Shown: piece after piece, positions 943-42,221 of the stretch
Position numbering within the stretch: the stretch's first letter is position 1
Layout of the letters: the number at the start of each line of letters is the position of its first letter
Position numbers and translations under genes: made by a program
Notes under the pieces: generated by a model
The model's database searches: none
What the model was told of the DNA's origin: nothing
The model's input: only the letters and a program-made list of their open reading frames with translations
Origin: Polytrichum commune
Lineage: Eukaryota; Streptophyta; Polytrichopsida; Polytrichales; Polytrichaceae
Reading direction: 5' to 3'
NCBI GenBank assembly: GCA_950295325.1
Contig: OX485803.1
Coordinates: forward strand, 38,517,554-38,581,553
Length of the DNA: 64,000 nucleotides

Positions 943-2778
943 GACACGTTCCCATACCTACCCCAACAATTACTCATAGAAGTACTAAGATGCACAGAAC
1001 CTATCACAGAATACACATACCCTACCCCCCCGACAGTACACAACCAAATACTATCACCTAGACCAATAACACCCACAAGCCAAGAAACATACATCATAAC
1101 GTGGAATGCCGCATCACTCAACACGGCAATGCCATGCCTCCACGAGCTACTAACCCACTACCGATACCCCCCAACAGCCATAACTATACAAGAAACCAAA
1201 CTCACTGCCACAAAATCCACCAAATACATTCAAAACATCTTCCCACAATACAAATTCTTCTTCAACAATACGCACAACATTACACGTACTATACGACAAA
1301 GAATGACACATCGGAGTCACAGAGGAGGCCTACTCACTCTCATCCACAATAACCATGCGTTCCCTGGTAACCTATCTAAAATACCCACTCCCGTAGACAT
1401 ATCACCTTTTCTTCAGATAATACGTATAGCAAACCAACCCCTCCAACCATGGCTATTAATAAACATATATATGTCATCCCACGATGAAGATCTACCCCTC
1501 ATCCCCACCATACAAACCACCATAGTTGAACAAATTAATGCACATCCCAATCACGCCTATGTATTATGTGGCGACTTTAACCGAGACATAGCACTCATAG
1601 GAAGACAAAATGACCAACAAACTACACCACCCCAAGCATAAGACTATCAATGTAGGGCATTTATAGACAACCTAGATCTAACATACGTCACAACAAATTC
1701 TACATTCTCAAGACAAGGAGGAAACAACTACACGCACAATAGCCTAATAGACGGTTTCTTTATAAACACCCTAAACAATAACCAATATAGATCAACCACA
1801 AACCAAGATATAAACCTCAACTCCGACCACATACCCGTACAATTACATATCCCACCCAATATACTAATAGCCAGAACACCATTACCCAAACCGGAACCAC
1901 CCCCAAGAATATTCAACCCCATACCAAAGTCAAATCTAAAAAACTTCCACATGCAGTTCTTCGAGACCAATTCAACCCAAATAAAGGAACTTACACAATT
2001 GCTTAAAACTAATACGACCTTGACAACAACACAATGGCAAATGGTATGTGAATCATTTGAAACCCTCGTCAATAGCATTTCTAATATAGTATTAAAAACA
2101 TGCAGTGCACCACCAATTCCGAATTTACCAAACAACATTGCTAAACAAGGAGGCTATCTTCCAAAGAAACTCCAAAAACAATGGAAAAAACACTTAGCCA
2201 CATACCACCTTACTCGGAAAATAATATACATTACAAAAAATAACCCGAATTGGCGAGACCACCCCATCATTCAACAAATGAATAGCCAAACGTATAGCAC
2301 CCTCCCAACACCCCCAATACACCCACTACCACACAATACTTGGATAGAAGATCTAGCCAACAAGGCAAAAACAGCCAAAAAAGAAGCCCGGAAAATCACA
2401 ACGGAATATTCATTAAAACAAATAAAAAAAACCATATCCAAATACCAACAACTATATGACAAAAGCCCCAAAAAAATCAACAAAAAGGTCTTCAAAGAAA
2501 ACGATTCACCCCCACTAGACTGCATTATAGATAGATATAATAATATCCTCACCAACCCAGAAGACATCGCCAAAGAAATTCACACCCAACAATCTATCAT
2601 TAACAAACCTACAGTCCCCACATGCCACTACCAACCTGATCACCCACAATACTGCACATGTGGGGTTAGGCAATACCCATGGCATGACCTAGACGGATAT
2701 ACTATCGAAAAAAGAGGTGAACCAAATGTTCCATTACACACATACCTAGACCAAGAAACGTACGACATGTGTCTTTGA
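943..2778 (+). pseudogene. LINE-A endonuclease (APE/EEP type) segment
   Basis: This continues the frame of the leader. The AP-endonuclease-like domain starts at YIITWNAASLNT (about 1089), has the catalytic-type AITIQETKL (about 1180), LLINIYMSS (about 1453), the GDFNRD motif (about 1570) and SDHIPVQL near its end (about 1825). It is followed by a basic linker leading to the RT. The order matches endonuclease domains of APE-type LINEs, which nick the target DNA for target-primed reverse transcription. A TAA at 1639-1641 interrupts it, and a one-base loss near 2800, relative to LINE-B, puts the RT in another frame. Confidence 0.75.
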
Positions 2779-5700
2779 AATCTAGCAAACGGGAAACCCC
2801 CGGGCCAGACAAAATCCCTAATGCCATATTAAAGTCCATGCCTCCACGCTTCCATACACTTCTATTTCTTCTTTTTACCCATTGTTATAAACAAAAACGC
2901 ATCCCGACATCCTGGAAAACAAGTACTACCATACTATTGTATAAGAAAAGCAACCCATACTGCCTCAACAACCACAGACCAATTGCTCTTGCCAACACAA
3001 TATACAAATTCTTTACTAGCACACTTACTAGCATCCTCGCCACGTATGGAGAAAGACATCAAATCCTACATGACAGCCAAGAAGCATTTCGAGCCGAGAG
3101 ATGCACGTCAAGGCACCTACAAACTCTAATATCAGCACTTGAAGATATCAGATTCACAAATCAAGATATCTACATCCTATATATAGACTTCAAAAATGCC
3201 TTTGGCTCAATTGATCACGCTAGATTACTAGCCATCATGAAAGATCTAGGTTATCCACAAGACGCCGTAGCATTGATAAGAAATATCTACGCACAATCTA
3301 CCACCACATACATAGGAGAATACTTTGGTAAAACACAACCAATCCCCATACAACGAGGAACCATACAAGGAGATACATTAAGCCCATACTTGTTTATTAT
3401 TTTTCTAGAACCCCTCTTGCGGTGGTTACAAAGGGGAAACAATGGATATACCTTCAAAACCTCTACCACTAAATTGAACTCCGCAGCATATGCCGATGAC
3501 TTAGCCATCCTAGCCAACAAAGTAACATCATTACAATTACAACTAGACAAACTAGACAAGTTCTGCGAATGGGCAGGAATGGACCTAGGTATATCCAAAT
3601 GCGCGATCACGGGATGCCCCAACAAGTCAAAACTAAATCCACAAGCCTTCAAAATACACTTACAAGAAGCAAATATAAATTTCAGACAACAACAAATACC
3701 CATACTTAGCCAACACGAACCATATGTATATCTTGGAATTAACCTAGTTCCTTCATTACAGTGGAAAACACAAATGCACATCACCACGGCTAAATTAACC
3801 AAACAAAGTAAATTTTTAATAACATGCCCAGCAACCATGAAACAAAAAATAAAAATGGTCGATACAGTCATAAGAGCTGGTATTGCCTACAACTTCTATG
3901 CCGTACCGTACTCTCTTCCGGCCATTAAAAAACTAGACAAGAAAATCATCGCCCTACACAAAACCATATGTGGATTACCAAAATGTATGTCAAACGCCGT
4001 CACACAACTACCACATGACATGTTCGGGACAGAAGCCTTTTCATTAAAAAACGCATACATAACATGTATAGAAGAACAACTCATAAATGCCCTAAACGAC
4101 AAAGGAAGGCTCGGTAGAATATACAAAGGCTTAATACAACACATACTTGCTAAACACGGAGGAGCCCAAAACCTACCACGCCTCTCACCGCATGACTGTA
4201 TGCAATCACCAATTACAAGATCCCTATTCCTATTGAAAAAGACAAGTGGAATCCACCTCAAAAGTACACAAGGAAACTTCCCTCTCACCCCTACACCACT
4301 AGAAACACAATGGATGTTACAAGCACGAAACATCCCAACACTTACCCCCGAACTATCACTAAAATACCTTCACAAGCTAATATTACATAACGTATATGAA
4401 ATAAAACACATCACATGCCCCAATGGAACACACCTAATGAATAACGAAGAATTTAAAAATCATTACAATAAACCCACTAAATTAGAGAAAACTGCACTAG
4501 AATATGCCATAAAACTATTTTGTAAGCCAACATGCCTTACCCCATGCACACGACAATGCTCAACACATATGACACCAAACACCCTAAAAGATGAATATAA
4601 AATAATAAACCATAATATACCTCTGAACCCCCAAAGACACCACACTTATGTAGCACCACCAATAATGGAAGAATACCCAAAACCACCCCCTTACATACTC
4701 AAAGACCCAAAACACTTCCCGATATATAAAATAAAAAACGACTGCCCATGTGCATATACGGACAAGTACAAAATCAAGAAAAAATACATATCTTACCTAT
4801 GCCAATGGACACTCCCAAACGATATAATCTATGATAAATGGCTACCCCAAAAAGAATTGTTCCCTTGGAACAACCAAGACGCCATAAACCACAACATTCT
4901 GCTATTAACACAATACTATACCCAAAAACAACACCAACACTTTACTAACATCCTTAATACAAACTTCAACCACGAACAAATGAGAGACACCAGATATATC
5001 CCCCCACCACAAACCATACCCTTATGCCACATACACATCAACGATTGCAACCCAGAGGATGATATTGAAAGCACAGAGTATACTATCCAAACCCAACATG
5101 ACACTGCACACATCTACGATAACACCGGCCGCCACTTAATTAACATCCCGAAAACAAGATTAAACTGGTTATGGGACCAATACCACTCAGCACTAAACAC
5201 ATCACACAACCTAGAACCACCCACTCAATCATTCGAAACAGAAGTAACATGGCTATATCAAAGGTATAAATACAAAACCCCCAAAAATGACCCCCTTAAA
5301 CTCTCTCAATATACACTCCCAAATGCCATCCTTGAAAACCTCATAAACACATTCGAAATAACACACTCATATTTCTCGTCACAAGTAACATGCCCCACTA
5401 CACTCATACAATTCCACTCCCCATTTCCTAGGGATGCAATATTTGGATCAACTGGAAAGGCATTTCAACATAAATGGCATGGAAATGGATATGCACACCC
5501 ACACACGAACACCGAAACTCAACAAGCCCTCCATTGGGCCCGCCTCGCAGCCAAAAATGACTCCAACTCCGTCACAATACTAGTAATGCCAGACGAAAAT
5601 TGGTATCACAATCCTAACCCACATAATGGACCCTTTCCAGACTCACATATTATAACTCACTTCAAAGCCGACACCATCACATACGAAGAACCAACAATTC

Positions 5701-6056
5701 CCCCAGAACTACGTACAGAACCTAGAACAGAAACTCACGCTATACAAATAATATGCATACATCACAAAAACACACCCATAGGAACAAATTCCTTTATCCA
5801 ACAAATGAACGATACTGCAAACACACTACAAATCCCTGAAATGGTCTGTCAAATTGCTCCACCAACACCACCAGACACACCAGTGAACTGCAATAAAAAT
5901 GGGCCAAACTCACCTACCCACCTCCACCTACCCCGCCAACCACACAAATGCCAACCAACCTATGGAACATCAACCCGATACAATGCCTACCGCTTAAATA
6001 CCCGCCCCAATTCTGCTATTACACGGACGGGTCATTCAAACCACCAAAGCAGCTAA
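2769..6056 (+). pseudogene. LINE-A reverse transcriptase and linker, 1095-aa open frame
   Basis: The longest open frame in the window. RT motifs occur in order: TPGPDKIPNAIL (residues 10-21), the NHRPIAL region (about 68-74), QEAFRAERC (about 104), YIDFKNAF with Asp140, QRGTIQGDTLSPYLF (about 197-211), and AAYADD with Asp243/Asp244. The catalytic Asp triad is therefore present. Downstream lies a linker of some 650 residues containing an evenly spaced Cys cluster (CKPTCLTPCTRQC, about residue 590) that LINE-B also keeps. The frame ends in a frameshifted tail overlapping the RNase H frame that starts at 5948. The RT would copy the element RNA at the nicked target. Confidence 0.85.
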
Positions 6057-7483
6057 ACAATGGGCAATGGAGACGGGAAAAAGCTGGTTACGGCATTTAC
6101 AACCCTTTCAAAAATCTAAAAATCACAGAAAGGCTACCAGGACTACAAAATATTCTCCGAGCAGAAATGATGGCTATACATCACACTCTACAACTCCTCA
6201 CCACAACATACCGAAATGAGCCAGCATACATATTCACAGATTGCCTAAACATACTATATCTCTTAAACACACAAATCAAACACCCCACCAGCCATAACAG
6301 TCACCCAGACAAAACAATCCTAGAAAACATGCTTAGAATGCTAACATCCCGAACACAAATAACCATAATACATAAAATCAAGGCTCACACAAACATAGGA
6401 GGAAATGACCAAGCAGATATACTAGCCAAACAAGGATGTGAACTAGACTACAGAGATGCTACACTCCCACATGAACACGCACACCCCACACCATACTACC
6501 TACAAAAAGACTGGTGGCACTCCATGCAAGAAACACCTGACAAAGGCCCCATTAGACACCTCAGCAAACATATCCTCAAACATGACAATGAACATAACTT
6601 AGCTACAATAGCAAATCAAACGCATCAATTACACAAATGGCTGGACAATGATGACATAGATAAAACATTATCAAATGACTTTTGGACGAATCCTAACGTC
6701 ACGGATAAACAAAAAACATGTTTAGTAAAATTCCGAACCGGTCAATATATGGGCCATGCTCGAAAACAACTCTTCTTTGGAAGAGAAGCCTTCCCATCAA
6801 GAACATGCCCCATATGCAATTCAACAGATGCCGATACATGGCTACATGTACTACTTAAATGCAAACAACAACACATCCATGCACTAATCACTAAAAGGCA
6901 TAATAAAGCGGTATGGGAAATACGTAAACTCATTGTTTCAAACCGTACATCAAGGCACTACACATTAATGAATGCATGAATACATAATGACCAACCACAA
7001 GAAAATATAGTCCCATCATGGCTACTCTCATGTACATGTAACTCCCAAAGATGTCACTGCAACGCTCGGCTCAAACCCGACATACTATGCATCATAGGCC
7101 ACCCATATAACCACCCACCCCCAGAAACCCCCACACCTAATATTACCATACAGTTCATAGAATTCACATACTGCAACGACAGATTCGCCACTGAAACCTT
7201 AGACAAAAAAATTATGAAATACCAACCACTCATAGACAACATCTCCACAAAAGGTTGGAAGGTGGCCCCACTCATGGTACTAGTTGCAGGAGCAAGAGGC
7301 ACAACATATATCCCCTCAATGAAAAACTTGGAATCAACATTTACGCTCCCTATCACGAAAATCAAAAACACATTTAAACAAATTAATATAATTGCTACAC
7401 AATACGCGCACTCCATACTTATACATAAACGAAGGTTAGAAAACCGACAAACTATTAATGATCTCCAAGACCCCCATAATTAA
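5948..7483 (+). pseudogene. LINE-A RNase H, CCHC-like motif and C-terminal domain
   Basis: The first 343 residues (5948-6979) carry a type-I RNase H fold: YTDGS (Asp27), AEMMAIHH (Glu73), FTDCLN (Asp98), KAHTN (His147) and NDQAD (Asp157), so the catalytic set is complete. Further on is CPICNSTDADTWLHVLLKC, a Cys-x2-Cys-x9-His-x4-Cys arrangement typical of post-RT zinc motifs in LINEs. A TGA at 6977-6979 interrupts the frame. After it the same frame runs to 7483 and encodes a conserved C-terminal domain (LKPDILCIIGHPY, FIEFTYC, GWKVAPLMVLVAGARG, AHSILIHKRRLENRQ). The same blocks recur in LINE-B and LINE-C. Confidence 0.85.
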
Positions 7484-29850: not shown

Positions 29851-31760
29851 CAAGATATGCACACATAGACTGCCTTCACCAACCCCGTCAAACCCCCAAA
29901 CCTCATAGCTACAACAATGTCACAACACCACCAAGTACACAAGCTTCCACTCCTTCTCAAAATCATTTCTTTCATTTACTTGCATGCTTACCTACAACTT
30001 GTTGAATCTTAAAGTTCAGATCCACTTACATATATCTCTAACTTGCATGACTACTGTCTACAGAAACACTATGGCTACACCACAAGCCAACACGGTAATC
30101 ACACCAACAAAAGCAACCTACGAAGCGACACCAACTCACATCTAGCAACCAATGTTCAAGATCCACACCCACTATTCCAACAACCAATACAAGCGTCGAA
30201 AAAAATAGGAGACCAACGACAAGTCCCAAACCCCGCCAAGAAGCCCCAACCACTGCAGATACGCACAAACGAGCAGCAAAGAGAGCAACAAGGCCGAATC
30301 AACCCAATGCAAAACACCTCGCACACCGGAGGAGCAACCCTAACTTGCGGAAAGAGAAACCGCCCAACAATAGCAAGAGCACCGACAACTCCAACCGCAG
30401 CTGAACAGCAAGCAAAGCACAATGGCCACACTCTGCACAACGGAAGAGCAATAACAGGCCGCAACAGAGAAACAAAAAATAACCCAACAACACCACGAAC
30501 AATGGCAGCCCCAACTGCAGCCGCACCTCGCACGATGGCAACCCCAATTGCAGCAGCACGCCGAACATGCAGTCGACACCTGTGAAAAGGGCCCATAACG
30601 AAAACTGTCAGACACCGCCCAAGACACGACCGCACCATCAACAAAGAACCAGCATGCTGCCGAAACCCACGTAGCCAGACAAAGACAGGAGTGACCATAC
30701 GACACTCACAACACGAATGCAACAAAGAACTCCACCACCAAAAAAGAAACCCTGCGAGAGGGGAAGACTGGGCAGCCTTGATGACGCCACAATTGCAACG
30801 GCAACAAAAGCAGCCGAAGCAGATTTGAATGAAGCCACACCAAAAACGGCAATGCCACGAGCAACGCCAACAACAACAACAAAGCAAAGCCACCCCTACA
30901 CTACAAAAGGTGGCTTCAGCCACCAAAATTAACCAGGTCTCTTACAGCAAGCCCCCAAATCCGCACGCAAGACAACTCAACCCCCGAGAAGAAACATGTG
31001 GCAAGGCGTGCCCATTTTAACAAAACTCTAGTACACAAGGGCCATCAATGGAAAATCTACCCTGGAAAAACCCAAAAACAGGAGCAAGCCCCACACCCCC
31101 TAATCATGCCCACGACTCAACAAGACAACAATATCACTGTGACAAAAACATCCACTGATAGAAATGGCGTTGTAAACGCCCACGATGCACTCCACCTCAA
31201 CCATAAAGAAGTTCGGCTCTATCACTCCAACCACCATTCTTACCCACAGCAACCTCCCGCCCTCTCTCCCTCACAAGAGCCATACTACCATTCTATCTCA
31301 CCTTCAGTCTCATACCCCCTCCCAATATCCTCTGCCTCCGAAATAGACACTAGGAAGGAAACGCACACAGACTCACGGCGCCCAGACACACCAACCCTGG
31401 TAGACCCAAGCAGTCCTCAACTTGGGAGCTCCCACGGAGGAAGAGCGGCGACACACAGAGGCGAGTGGAGCAGGAACCCGACCGAAAGGCGAGCGACGAC
31501 CCACAGCGTTGCGAAGAGTTGGAGACTGGGCGGAGGGAGAGAAACGACACACAAAGCTGCGGAGAACAGAAGCTCGGACGGAGGGAACGCAACACCAAAC
31601 TGTGGCAGCGAGCTCAACCTCAGGAGCTCCGACGAAGGCCCAACAACGACACAACACCACTGAACTGCAACACCTGGGAAAATACCGAACAACTCAAGGC
31701 ACCGAAGGCAGTCTAGCGGTGGAGGAATTGTGGAGGCACCAAACATACTCTACTGCCTAA
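29851..31760 (+). repeat. A/C-rich low-complexity region with degenerate internal repeats
   Basis: Composition changes sharply here: the plus strand becomes A/C-rich and more GC-rich than its flanks. Near 30495-30570 a roughly 33-bp unit around ATGGCAGCCCCAACTGCAGC is repeated imperfectly. Between about 31430 and 31665 roughly 48-bp units around CGGAGGGAGAGAAACGACAC recur with many changes. Open frames at 30043-30585 and 30998-31663 encode only Pro/Thr/Gln/Arg-rich sequence, and the long antisense frames are Cys/Trp-rich. I read this as a 5' non-coding or low-complexity part of a mobile element upstream of the broken frame at 31999-33923, which is inference. Confidence 0.4.
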
Positions 31761-34774: not shown

Positions 34775-35521
34775 TTTCAACTATACAAATGTTGTATATT
34801 ATTATTAAATACTATACAAAGCATATACCAAATACGCATACACCATATAAACATAGTATTTATCAATATCACAAAGAACATACAACATAACAACACACAA
34901 ACTAGAACCAAAGCAAAACCACTTATAAAATACATCCAAAGCAATACCCAAGCAAACAAAGGACGCTCAAAACAACATACAACGTATAGGGTCTTAATAC
35001 ACAAAAAAAAATGCACACATATGGGAACAAACAGACAATACATAATAAAAAACAAAACATCATACACCGAATGCAAACTAGCACCTAAAACAAAAACAAA
35101 TAAACAAATAACAACAAATCAACCCCTCAACATGTGTTGCAAACAAAGAAACATAACAAACTATATACAACATCAACTTGCATATTACAACCCACATCCC
35201 ACATAAAACCCCATAGAGTACCACACAAAACATCATTCGGACTCGGCCTACCGGCCTCGGCACAAAATAAAACAAACAAGATATACACAAAACCGCACTT
35301 TCAGCCACACCTTCAACACAATTACAAAGCCTATATACAAAAACATCAAACTTACACATTACCTCCCCAAATATACTCAAAACATAATACCTGCCTTACC
35401 TAACATCTTCACCACAAGCAAATACACACTCACAATATATCATAAAATAAACAAGAAAAACCCAACAATAGAACAATATTATGGATATCACTTCATAAAC
35501 AAACTAATGTTATTACAACGT

Positions 35522-35548
35522 GGAGACATTGAACCTAACCCAGGTCCG
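35522..35548 (+). other. Canonical 2A-like motif in LINE-B
   Basis: The sequence encodes GDIEPNPGP, an exact D-I-E-x-N-P-G-P match, preceded by INKLMLLQR. This resembles the trypanosomatid L1Tc-type 2A context (a leucine-rich stretch then GDIE-NPGP, from memory). It sits at the same place as the motif in LINE-A, upstream of the endonuclease. Confidence 0.85.
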
Positions 35549-38500
35549 ATGCCTAACCTAATACAAAAACACCCCACTGCCTACAAAAAACGACAAACAA
35601 CATAATTTCTACCCAACACGATCAAATTCCACCCAGAGTATCAACACTTGGCCAAAACATTCAAACCCCTTTTCCAAACCACGCACAACCTATACACGCA
35701 AACAACACTTTCACTCCCACACTTATATACCTATATACAATTATATAATAACCATCTCCCCCCTAGGATCATCTATGCATTGGTCGTAATGATTAGTCCC
35801 TCCATTGTAACATGCAACACGTATCTACAACAACAACCAACCCAAGACTGGACATCAAAACTATTAGAAGAAATGACAAAACTGCCTAACCCCCCAGAAC
35901 GGCACATAAATACCCCGCACCCATATACACAATTTCAAAATACATACAATAACATAATCACCCCCCTAATACAATACATACAAAACTATACGACTACATA
36001 CACCTAAATTTTGACTCACTTAGCATCCACAACCTACAAGAAACATTCCCATATCTACCGAGATAACTCCTAATGGAGGCATTAAGATATAATGAACCCA
36101 TAAATGAATATACACACCCTAACCCCCTAACCCACAATCAACCAACATCACACGGATCAGTCCCACTAACAAGTCAAGAATCATATGCCATAACTTGGAA
36201 TGCCTCCTCACTTAACACCGCCATGCCGTGCCTACAAGATCTAATCATAAGCCCCCAAAAAACCCCATCAATTATCATTGTATAAGAAACCAAATTATTA
36301 GCCATTAAATCCACAAAATACATACAAAGCCTATTACCCCAATAGAAAATTTTCTTCAACAATACGCATAACATCACACGAATTACAAGACAAATAATGA
36401 CCTACAGAGGCTATAGAGGAGGCCTCCTATTACTAATTCACAATCAACATGCATTCCTTGGTAATCTCTCTAAAATTCCCACGCCTGCAGACATATCCCC
36501 GTTTTTCCAAATAACACGCATAGCAAACCAACCCCTACAACTTTGGCTCATAATTAACTTATATATGTCCTCACACGAGGAGGATATACCCCTTATCCCC
36601 ACCATACAAACTACCACAACTAACCAAATGAACGCGCACTCTAACCACACATATATCTTATGCGGAGACTTCAATAGAGATATCGCTCTAATAGGACGAC
36701 AAAATGACCAACAAACTACGCCACCACAAACGGAGGATTACCTTTGGCGATCCTTAACAACCAACCTCGAACTATCATACGTCCCAACAAATACAACATT
36801 TTCCAAACATGGAAGACACAACTATACATAAACAACCTAATAGACGGTTTCTTTTTCAAAACCCCCAATAATAACCAATACACCTCAACTATACATCAAA
36901 ATACCCACTTAAACTCTGATCATTTTCCCATACAACTACAAATCCCCCCAAACACGTTAATTGCCAAAACACCACTTATAAACCCCGAGCCACCACCCAA
37001 AATACTTAACCCCATACCGAAAGCGAAACTCGACGACTTCCACATGAAATTCTTCGAAGCAACTCAAATTAGATAGACGAGCTTACACAACTATTAAAAA
37101 ATGACCATCTGACATGCGATCAGTGGCAACTAGCCTGCAACTCATTAAACTCCCTCACCGACAACATCACCACCATCGTCCTAGACACATGTTGTGCCCC
37201 ACCCATCCCCACACTACCCAACCGAATTGCTAAACAATGAGGCTACATTCCCCAAAAATCTTAGAAACTATACCTATCTACCTACCACCTCATCCGAAAA
37301 ACAATATATACCATAAAAAACAACCTGAACTGGCGCACACACCCCATTATTACCCAAGAAATAATCAACCACACCCACATCACTATACTCCCACTACCAG
37401 ACCCACCGCTAGCATATGATGCATGGATAGAAAACTTAGCCAAAATAGCAAAAAAAACTAAAAACAAAGCCTGCAAAATCACAACAGACTACACTACCAG
37501 ACAAATTAAAAAAATCATATCCAAATATCAACAACTCTATGACCAAAGTCCCAAGAAAATAAACAGAAAAGTCTTTAAAAGTACCGACACCCTCACACTT
37601 GATTGCCTCATAAATAGAGCCAATAACATCCTTACTAGCCCAAAAGACATCGCACAAGAAATACATGCTCAACAATCAATCAACAATAGACCAACTGTTC
37701 CAACATGTTACCGCCAACCAGACCACATACAACGTTGCATATGCGGAGTGGGACAATACCCATGACACGATTTAAATGGATACACTCTTGAAAAAAGAGG
37801 TGAAGCACTAACTTCCTTGCACACGTATCTCGACCAAGAAACATATGATATATGCCTTAAAAACCTAGCCAATGGAAAAACCCCTAGACCTGATAAAATC
37901 TCCAACGCTATACTAAAAAACATGCCACCAAGATTCCACGTGCTTCTTATATTATTCTTCACCCATTGCTATAAACAAAAACAAATTTCGAATCCTGAAA
38001 AATAAGCCTCACAATACTCTTATACAAAAAGGGAAACCTCCACCACCTTATCAAGCACAGACCAATCGCACTCGCCAACATAATCTACATGCTATTTACC
38101 AGCACACTTACAAATATATTATCCACATACGGAAAAAAATACCAAATCCTACATGATAACCAAGAAGGTTTCCGAGCTGAAAGATGCACCGCCCGACAAT
38201 TACAAACTCTCATAGCAGCACTATAGGATGCAAGATTTACCAACCAACACATCTATATACTATACATTGACTTCAAGAATGCCTTCAGCTCTATTGATCA
38301 CGCCAGACTACTTGTCATTATGAAAGACCTCGGATATCCACATGATGTTATAGCCCTAGTAGGCAATATCTATTCATAGTCCACTACCATATTTATTGGC
38401 GAACATTTTGATAAAACACAATCAATACCTATACAACGAGGAACTATACAAGGAGACACACTAAGTCCATATCTCTTTATCATTTTCCTTTAACCACTCC

Positions 38501-41261
38501 TCAGATGGCTATAACGCGGAAACAATGGATACACCTTTAACACCTCTAATACAAAACTAAGTGTTGCAGCCTATACAGATGACCTAGCAATAATATCCAA
38601 CAACTTACCATTCCTTCAACACGAACTGAACAAACTCGGCAAATATTGTGAATGAGCGGGAATGAACCTCGGCATCCCGAAATGTGCAGTCACGGGCTGC
38701 CTCAATAAATCTAAACAAAACCCCCAAGCCTTCAAAACACAACTAAACAACATCAATATCAACTTCAAAAATCAACCCATACATGTCCTAAGCCAACATG
38801 AGCCCTATGTCTACCTTGGAATTAATCTAGTCATATCACTACAATGGAAAATACAAACACACATAACAACAACCAAACTAATCAAACAATGCAAACTCCT
38901 AACAGCATGTCCAGTCACTATGAAACAAAAAATACAAATGATCGACACAGTCATACGAGTTGGCATCGCCTACAGCTTCTACGCCGCCCCATATTCACTC
39001 CCCGCCATTAAAAAACTTGATTAAAAAAAAAATTCCCTGCATAAAACTATATGTGGCTTCCCGAAATGCATGTCAAACGCAGTTACACAACTACCACAAG
39101 CTATGTTCGGCACAGAAGCTTTCTCACTAAAAATGCATACATTACATGTATTGGCGAATAATTCATCAACACCCTAAATGATAAAGGAAGACTTGGAAGA
39201 ATATTCAATGGACTAACAAACCATATACTTGTCAAACACGGTGGATCACTAAACATACCACGCATATCACGACATGACTGTGTAAGATCACCAATCACAC
39301 GAACACTATTCCTACTCAAAATAACTAGTGACATACATTTTAGGAGTACACTAGAGAAATTCCCCCTTCTCCCCACGCCACTAGAAACACAGTGGATGCG
39401 TCAAGCACAAAATATACCAACACTAACCCCCACAACATCCCTAAAATACCTGCATAAATTAATATTACAAAACATAACCGAACTTAAGCACATAACACAC
39501 CCCAATGGTACACAACTAATGACTAACGATGAATTCAAACATTACTATGACACTCCCACCAAAATAATTAAAACCGCCCTAGACCAAGCAAGAGTACTTT
39601 TCTGCGAACCACCATGTCACGACCAATGCCTAAATAACTGTCCCACACATGTCATACCAAACACCCTTAAAAATGTATATAAAATACAAAACCACCACAT
39701 ACACACAAGAACAAGAAGGTACAACGTACAACCACCACCACCCCCACGACCGGAATACCCAAAACCACCCTCATACATCCAAAATAACCAAAGGCAATTT
39801 CCAATGCACTCTATAATAAAATATCGGTCCCACACCTACAAAGATAAAAAAAAACAAAATCACAAAAAAATACACATCCTATCTATGCCAATGGATACTC
39901 CCAAACGAAACAACATATGACAAATGACTTCCCCAAAAAGACATGTTCCCATGGAACAACCAAAATACCATAAATCATAACATCCTACTACTAAGGCAAT
40001 ATTATACCAACAAACAAAACCAACACTTCACTCATATTTTACAATTAAACTTTAATGAAGAACAATTGCGAGACACCAGACACATTCCTCCGCCACAAAT
40101 CATACCCCTATGCCACATCCATATTAACGAATGTAACCCAGATAATAACATCGCCCACACACAAAATACCATCAAACGCCAACATGATGTAGCACACATC
40201 ACGACAACGATGGCCGCCACTTAATTACCATCCCTGAACAGAGACTATAATGGTTATGGGAACAATACCAAGACGCACTAAACAAAACACACAACCTAGA
40301 ACCTCCCATACAACCATTCGAAAAGGAAGTTGCATGGCTATACCAACGATACAAATACAAAATACCCAAAAACGACCCCCTCAAACTCTCACAATACACA
40401 CTCCTAAATGCCATTCTTGAACACATTATTGTCTCCTTTCACATCACACATTCCTACTTCTCATCACTAGTAACATGCCCTGCCACGCTAAGACAATTAT
40501 CCTCCCCATTCTCCCGAGACAAAGTATTCGGGTCAATAGGAATGGCATTCTAACATAAATGGACAGGAAACAGATATGCACATCCACATACCGAAAAGGA
40601 CACCCAACAAGTCCTCCATTGGGCAAGACTTGCAGCCAAAAACAACCCAAACCCAAACACAATACTTATAACAACTGATCCGAATTGGTACCATAACCTC
40701 AACCCCCATGTAGGGCCTTTCCCATACTCACACGTCATCACACACTTCAAGGTGGATACCATTGTATACGACAAACCTACAATACCGCCGGAATTACGAA
40801 TTGAACCCCGAATAGAAAACTGTGACATCCAGGTATTATGTATACACCACAAAACCACGCCCTTTGGCCCGAGAGGATATGCATGACGCATGACTGTTAT
40901 TGGAAACACCCTACAAATATCCCAATATATTTAACACAATTGCGCCACCAACACCAATAAATACATCAGTAAACTGTAACAAAAATTGGTCTCAACTCAC
41001 ATACCCACCTCCAGCACCTCCAGCACCTACAACCCAAACAACCAATATCCCAATAATCACCAACCAAAACATATGCCTACCCCTCAAATACCAGCCACAA
41101 TTCTGCTATTACACAGATGGGTCTTTCATACCACCTAAAGAAACAACCCAAAGGCAATGGATACGAGAAAAAAAATAGGATATGGCATATATAACCCTTT
41201 TAAAAACCTTGAAATCATAGAAAGACTACCAGGACTCCAAAATATACTACGAGCATAATTA

Positions 41262-42221
41262 ATGGCTATACATCACACCCTCCGCCTCCTTATTACCACA
41301 TACAGAAATGAACCAACACACATCTTCACCGGCTGTCTCAATGTTCTATACCTCCTAAATACACAAACAAGACACCCAACTCTACACAACAGCCACCCAG
41401 ACAAGAAGATACTTGAATCTATAATTAAGATGTTACAATCCCGTACACAAACCACCACACTCCATAAAGTCAAAGCCCATGCGAACATAAGTGGAAACGA
41501 ACAAGCAGATCAACTAGCCAAAATAGGATGCGAATTAGACCATAGAGATGCCGTAGCAACATATGAACATGCATACCCCACGCCATACTACCTCCAAAAA
41601 GATTGGTGGCACTCAATGCAAGAAACACCAGACAAAGGCCCCATCAGACACCTAGGTAAATACATCTTCAAATATGACAAGCAACATAATCTAACCATCA
41701 TAGCAACCCAAACACACCAATTACATAAATGGCTAGACAACAAAGATTTTGATAAAGTAATGTCAAACGACTTCTGGAACAATCCGGTCATTACTGACAA
41801 ACAAAAAACATGCCTAATAAAATTCCGAACCGGACAGTATATGGGACATGCTAGGAAACAACTCTTTTTTGGCATAAACGCATATCCCTCCAATACATGC
41901 CCTATTTGCAACTCATTAGAAGCAGACACATGGCTACATGTACTCCTTAAATGCAAACAACAACACATCCATGCACTAATAACAAATAAACACAACAAAG
42001 CAGTATGGGAAATACGTAAACTTCTCGTTTCAAACACAGTAACAAGACACTACATACTTATGAATGCAGGCACATATAAGGATGTACCCCAAGAAAACAC
42101 AGTACCAACATGGTTGCTACCATGTACATGCGGTACCCAAAGACGCCACTGTAATGCTAGGCTCAAACCCGACATACTATGCATCTTAGGCCACCCATAC
42201 AACTCCCCCCCCACTAGATGA
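41262..42221 (+). pseudogene. LINE-B RNase H and CCHC-like region, 319-aa open stretch
   Basis: The largest surviving open stretch of LINE-B. It starts just after the RNase H Glu motif, where a TAA at 41257-41259 replaces the expected Glu codon region. It contains TGCLNVLYLL (the third motif, with Gly in place of the Asp of LINE-A), KVKAHANISGNEQADQLAK, and DKQKTCLIKFRTGQYMGHAR. Next come CPICNSLEADTWLHVLLKC and the first part of the C-terminal domain (LKPDILCILGHPY). It is very close to LINE-A residues and LINE-C in the CCHC block, the best conserved part of the family. Confidence 0.8.

Follow-up and report, generated by a model that had tools for sequence, protein, structure and literature searches.

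A 2A-like motif in a LINE family of Polytrichum commune: anatomy, reading frame and selection

The locus considered here raises the question of whether a plant LINE carries a 2A peptide and, if so, whether that peptide divides the product of a single long frame. Within the window, meaning the whole stretch of 64,000 nucleotides that was analysed, the sequence INKLMLLQRGDIEPNPGP occupies positions 35495-35548 of the forward strand, with its core, p12 to p19, at 35525-35548. The earlier note, which gave the motif as 35507-35548, had claimed that a plant LINE carries a 2A, placed before the endonuclease in a long polyprotein frame, and the copies that were read bear this out. The sequence and anatomy of the element, its copy number, the continuity of its frame, and the selection acting on the 2A core are matters of observation. 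They are the basis for a model, to which a probability of about 0.8 is assigned, in which a large APE-type LINE family would encode one polyprotein, with an ORF1-like part before the 2A and an N-domain, APE endonuclease, reverse transcriptase (RT), PCIF1-like domain and RNase H after it, the two parts being separated by StopGo.

According to this model, the ribosome would synthesize ...LLxCGDIExNPG, and the nascent chain would then prevent the Gly-Pro bond from being made. The ORF1-like protein would be let go with a 2A tail, and translation would restart at the proline, giving an enzyme part that begins with Pro. Two proteins would be obtained from one frame, with neither a stop codon nor a second start.

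The window copies and the anatomy of the element

Around the motif, the frame of the window element designated copy B reads INKLMLLQRG-DIEPNPGP-MPNLIQKHP. All features of this copy lie on the forward strand. An open stretch in the same frame lies 5' of the 2A (35207-35494) and, from its translation and the open frame found throughout the family, appears to be the basic, low-complexity tail of an ORF1-like part. It is followed by the lead-in INKLMLLQRG (35495-35524), the counterpart of the L-rich lead-ins of other copies, and by the core octapeptide DIEPNPGP (35525-35548), recognised by reading and by pattern searches, in which the break is predicted between G and the last P. The remains of the N-domain (MPNLIQKHP..., 35549-35965, a tblastn match to query residues 1-139) contain an in-frame stop at 35603-35605, the 19th codon past the core, where the frame ends, and the later domains are found in pieces: apparent endonuclease remains in broken frames, recognised by reading the DNA against copy A (36181-36960), an open piece 3' of the RT that resembles copy A by eye and gave no Pfam match (39162-39920), and an RNase H piece (41259-42221; PF00075, E 1.2e-6). 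Copy B is a dead, inactive fossil of a large LINE family.

A degenerate pattern allowing N or H at p16 matched the window twice, at 35525 in copy B and at 427 in the second LINE, copy A, and was found 0 times in 100 dinucleotide-preserving shuffles of the window. A search of the window against Rfam gave nothing at the gathering threshold. Elsewhere in the window, long open frames overlap on both strands (30833-31663 and 30156-30941) in a GC-rich stretch (50% GC).

Copy A, also on the forward strand, is less broken than copy B, and Pfam recognises in it the APE endonuclease, the RT, the PCIF1-like domain and the RNase H. Its upstream frame is open, without a stop, from the window edge to the 2A (1-426); the core, at 427-450, is the variant DIEPHPGP (p16 = H), common to L070 and L071. 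The N-domain, for which there is no confident family, extends over 451-939 to a stop at 940-942, and is followed by a piece of the APE-type endonuclease (943-1641; PF03372, E 5.9e-6). The RT occupies 2946-3743 (PF00078, E 1.8e-28; residues 76-341 of the 2721-6056 frame), the PCIF1-like domain 5184-5591 (PF12237, E 3.5e-8), between RT and RNase H, and the RNase H 6011-6439 (PF00075, E 4.9e-14; residues 39-181 of the 5897-6979 frame).

Outside the window, copy L025 is open for 2451 codons in the stretch examined, a frame that takes in the upstream part and the 2A and extends to the RNase H. A Pfam scan of this whole frame listed RT, PCIF1-like domain and RNase H and did not list the endonuclease; when scanned alone, the endonuclease piece stayed under the cut-off (PF03372, E 0.0055). 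The divergent copy L013 has an endonuclease that passes it (PF03372, 1.6e-7, plus PF14529). L013 represents a divergent subfamily, with 34% identity in the N-domain; it keeps LSGDIETNPGP, and SPPIL replaces MPNIL after the 2A. With its APE endonuclease, its RT and its dispersed copies, the family has the sequence features of an APE-type non-LTR retrotransposon. In comparisons with the PDB, the RT of copy A scored better with R2 (6.3e-29) than with human L1 (5.1e-16), a difference that does not in itself assign the RT to a lineage. Structure models of the N-domain and of the PCIF1-like region were poor (mean pLDDT 40 and 37, respectively) and were set aside.

The PCIF1-like domain (PF12237), present in copy A, corresponds in L025 to residues 1871-1966 of the 2451-codon frame, and no report on such a domain in a LINE was found in the literature searched. 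The catalytic motif of the PCIF1 methyltransferase is NPPF. Comparison of the copy A domain with the PCIF1 structure 6irx gave a weak match (E 0.0057), in which the N-P-P-F of 6irx is aligned to A-H-P-H; because of this replacement, the domain in the LINE is probably not an active cap methyltransferase.

Conservation, variation and selection at the 2A core

The exact DNA pattern of the core has 268 (141 + 127) matches in the genome assembly (408 Mb, 64 contigs, seven of them large), and the reversed pattern has 0. A looser pattern, in which G-D-I and P-G-P are fixed and p14-p16 are free, gave 445 matches genome-wide, compared with 5 for its control. A search with the 142 residues that follow the 2A gave 706 candidates, 150 of which were scored. 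Among these 150, the frame is open for at least 1000 codons in 33 (two with a stop inside the match) and for at least 2000 codons in 8.

A domain-first sample was formed from the 65 matches whose alignment begins at residue 1 and which lie on C1 or within the first 64.47 Mb of C2; it omits two partial domain matches (C1:71412952 and C1:73780382). The motif might have been absent or random in most other copies, as the earlier note allowed, and it is neither: D-I-E-x-N-P-G-P stands directly 5' of the domain in 46/65. Nor does a stop or a frame change appear as the ancestral state, the core adjoining the downstream domain in frame in the copies read. The remaining 19 consist of 6 with DIHPNPGP, 5 with DIK-x-NPGP, 3 with DIEPHPGP, 1 with NIEPNPGP, and 4 with broken cores (NLGP twice, NPRP and NPDP). 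To call the motif canonical is subject to a qualification: in groups of copies, the E is replaced by H, Q or K, or the N by H. The rare viral 2A variants p14=H, p16=H and p12=N are, according to the available part of a recent survey, about 90% or more active (PMC12846837); because of this, 56/65 copies can be counted as having a canonical core or a change of the viral-active type. Among the 30 best-matching loci, the core is exact in 23, the exceptions (L034, L035, L042, L046, L047, L052 and L057) having single or double changes or a stop.

Further variation is seen in the 93 strings listed of the 445 loose-pattern sites, all 93 from C1. In these, p14 is E in 53, Q in 20, H in 14, K in 4, and R and Y in 1 each; p15 is P in 37, T in 25, S in 16, L in 12, and other residues in 3; p16 is N in 88, H in 4 and K in 1. 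The lead-ins of other copies, compared by eye, are L-rich and end in S/C-G (LLLLLSG, LLLLLCG). By sequence, the motif belongs among the 2As, given that its core fits (D/G/C/N)(V/I)ExNPGP and that its upstream context, again by eye, is suitable. Q14 and K14 are missing from the over-represented variants listed in PMC12846837 and consequently count against full activity everywhere. Copies with K14 include some with long frames (L062, 2924 codons; L067, 2663; L069, 1076), and for this reason 2A activity may be dispensable in these copies, or K may be tolerated. The function of the 2A is perhaps not universal, given this long-frame subfamily with K at p14.

Selection was assessed by pairwise Nei-Gojobori counts (dN/dS), with codons containing stops or out of frame skipped, in a set of 33 sequences: 30 domain-first copies, window copies A and B, and L062. 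It should be noted that the 30 copies, being those that matched the single query L021 best, lean to its subfamily, that copy B was the given finding, and that L062 was chosen for its long frame. Divergent pairs involve 32 of the 33 sequences and close pairs 28; a larger set of 48 includes 15 motif-first copies in addition. For p11-p19, dN/dS is 0.03 in 371 divergent pairs (pS 0.65, pN 0.04) and 0.05 in 118 close pairs. In divergent and close pairs, respectively, the ratio is 0.18-0.22 and 0.15-0.18 for the N-domain, 0.33 and 0.38 for the 11 codons before the core, and 0.77-1.08 and 0.59-0.72 further upstream (0.56-1.08 over all sets). No p-values are given, since the sequence pairs are not independent. 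The 2A core, D-I-E-x-N-P-G-P, is under strong purifying selection at the protein level, stronger than that on the adjoining N-domain; this was the test that the earlier note had suggested.

A rival reading is that the octapeptide is a protein motif conserved for some other reason, as a domain boundary or as a binding or proteinase site, with no action on the ribosome. In its favor, StopGo in this LINE is predicted from sequence, and K and Q at p14 occur in groups of copies. It is nevertheless unlikely: viral StopGo is reported to show the same changes (p14=H, p16=H, p12=N) and p15 preferences; the lead, L-rich and with S/C-G just before p12=D, is like viral motifs 2 and 6; and constraint on the core exceeds that on the domain that it adjoins.

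The upstream frame and the arrays

If the 2A separates two proteins, the character of the first depends on what lies 5' of the core. There, the open stretch in frame 0 has a median length of 178 codons, compared with 5 and 8 in the other frames; it exceeds both of these in 33/33 copies, and in 46/48 when the 15 motif-first copies are included. The open frame reaches 575 codons at most, and six copies selected because their frames are long had open lengths (276 to 575 codons) that were reached in 0/2000 first-order Markov simulations each. Four copies (L054, L056, L062 and L008) have 0 stops in 500 upstream codons, where 21-22 are expected. K, N, T, P and H are abundant in the upstream part, which in L062 and L025 matched no Pfam family at E up to 1. 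In 20/47 copies, the stretch from the nearest stop to the 2A contains no in-frame ATG. From these sequence features it is concluded that the upstream part would be translated under weak constraint, in the manner of a disordered, basic protein of ORF1 type.

These results divide an earlier proposal, that a leader peptide is made separately from one long polyprotein: the long polyprotein frame is there, and the short leader was rejected on the upstream frame test, the frame in the same phase being up to 575 codons in length. In the arrangement known from sea-urchin NLR proteins, the 2A follows a short N-terminal leader, perhaps a signal sequence, and for the present LINE this might be suggested by the hydrophobic, leucine-rich lead-in and by the weak constraint and lack of a fixed start codon upstream. 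Given the median of 178 open codons, the maximum of 575, and the simulations of the six long-frame copies, it is quite improbable here. A start of translation at the Met just past NPGP was also rejected as not general, because L013 has Ser at that position together with an intact 2A and because the core is selected as a peptide.

Also in the upstream region is CTCGGCCTACCGGCCTCG, a unit that contains a GGCC/GGCC inverted repeat and lies at 35242-35259 in the window and upstream of the 2A in 37/48 copies. Its 50 occurrences are read in all three frames, and it is consequently thought to be kept as DNA or RNA rather than as protein. An interpretation of the whole upstream region as a 5' UTR, made because CTCGGCCTACCGGCCTCG is read in different frames, was overturned by the frame test. 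The behavior of this unit lends some color to the idea that the 2A sequence, too, is conserved at the level of DNA or RNA, as a promoter or for packaging or structure, and not as a peptide. For the core, this idea was rejected on codon use and is very improbable: in the 93 strings listed (of 445), each of the four Pro codons occurs at p17 and each of the four Gly codons at p18, and synonymous sites are near saturation in divergent pairs (pS 0.65) while the peptide is retained (pN 0.04), which speaks against a signal at the DNA level.

That the motif is a product of chance, assembly artefact or contamination is scarcely credible, given the absence of reversed-pattern matches and the presence of the family on all seven large contigs (and on C36, among the 150 candidates scored) of an assembly that has both a plastid contig and LFY genes. 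The plastid contig, C8 (146,561 bases), carries rbcL, tRNA-Arg(CCG) and accD, the last recognised by eye, and LFY SAM-domain matches occur at four places in the assembly, the best resembling Ginkgo LFY. These markers point to a land plant or a close relative as host, and the plastid order rbcL-trnR(CCG)-accD, LFY and the seven large contigs would suit a bryophyte, perhaps a moss. Because it is found on all seven large contigs, the LINE is taken to be resident.

Some copies have more than one 2A-like site. When same-strand loose-pattern neighbours on C1 less than 1500 bases apart were compared, the spacing was a multiple of 3 in 13/14 (binomial p 6e-6, a value to be read with the non-independence of relatives in mind). 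These neighbours form 12 arrays, in which the first site is DIQ in 9/12 and the last site DIHP in 9/12. Arrays hold two to four 2A-like sites, mostly with in-frame spacing (L079, L078, G000 C1 762073-762887 and others). In L079, three sites, DIELNPGP, DIYTNPGP and DIHPNPGP, lie in one open frame, and a further site just 5' of this stretch is at an in-frame distance, the bases between being unread; L078 has two. Such additional in-frame sites may cut the upstream part further.

In five copies (L041, L045, L048, L036 and L010), a distal duplicate of the 2A and the start of the N-domain has decayed while the proximal 2A is kept. Examples of decayed distal 2As are SKNIKSKPGP and SKDTETNLGP, and in L045 the frame is open through the decayed duplicate. 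This difference serves as an internal control, in that the 2A has been retained where it precedes the enzyme part. A more tentative hypothesis, doubtful at present, is that a plant LINE lineage outside L1 and RTE might run a StopGo polycistron, in which one frame with one to four 2As of differing strength (E, Q, H or K at p14) would set the ratio of ORF1-like products to enzyme, and in which the upstream protein would grow by in-frame duplication of 2A and N-domain.

Significance and relation to known systems

StopGo is known from animal and fungal viruses, from trypanosome and animal LINEs, and from sea-urchin genes. We know of no plant LINEs with a 2A, and no report of one in a plant LINE or other plant mobile element was found in the open-licence literature searched, although a search of this scope may have missed one. 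Natural use of 2A would be extended to the plant kingdom by a plant family in which the motif stands at hundreds of diverged sites. Furthermore, a single element family would provide a large natural mutation series (E, Q, H and K at p14; N and H at p16), a source of plant-derived 2As for gene stacking, and an explanation, open to testing, of how ORF1- and ORF2-like proteins might both be obtained from a single LINE frame.

The closest likeness in viruses is to the L-rich class of StopGo sequences (motifs 2 and 6). As described in the available part of the 2026 survey, this class has p12=D preceded by (A/S/C)G and an LLLLSG-like lead, and it shares with the present motif the G at p11, D-I-E-x-N-P-G-P, and the rare variants p14=H, p16=H and p12=N (PMC12846837). 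The differences are that the present element is a LINE and not a virus and that Q and K at p14 are off the survey's list; in the same part, the survey finds no evidence for natural StopGo use by plant viruses (PMC12846837). A search for relatives in viral contigs gave 56 pattern matches, none of them confirmed.

Among LINEs, the 2A of L1Tc sits near the N-terminus. The present LINE differs from the L1Tc/ingi elements in its plant host, the long ORF1-like part before the 2A, the PCIF1-like domain and the in-frame arrays. APE-type LINEs of animals reportedly also have virus-like 2As (Odon et al. 2013 is said to have described them); they are similar in combining a LINE with such a 2A and differ in belonging to animal clades. 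The L1Tc/ingi LINEs of trypanosomatids, as far as the available text of the source goes, likewise combine AP endonuclease, RT, RNase H and a 2A, and the L1Tc 2A is active both in vitro and in vivo (PMC4748587). Plant LINEs are placed in L1 and RTE by a 2022 review; like the present family, these are non-LTR elements with endonuclease and RT, often with RNase H, but in the part of the review available neither a 2A nor a PCIF1-like domain is mentioned for them (PMC9033089). The available portion of another source indicates that 2As function in plant cells (PMC11512398); together with the activity of the L1Tc 2A, this suggests that the host ribosome should respond to the motif. Finally, the N-terminal 2A of sea-urchin NLR proteins was active in plant cells when tested, according to the part of the report available; there, the 2A is associated with a short signal sequence, whereas in the present LINE it is preceded by a long upstream frame (PMC4981915).
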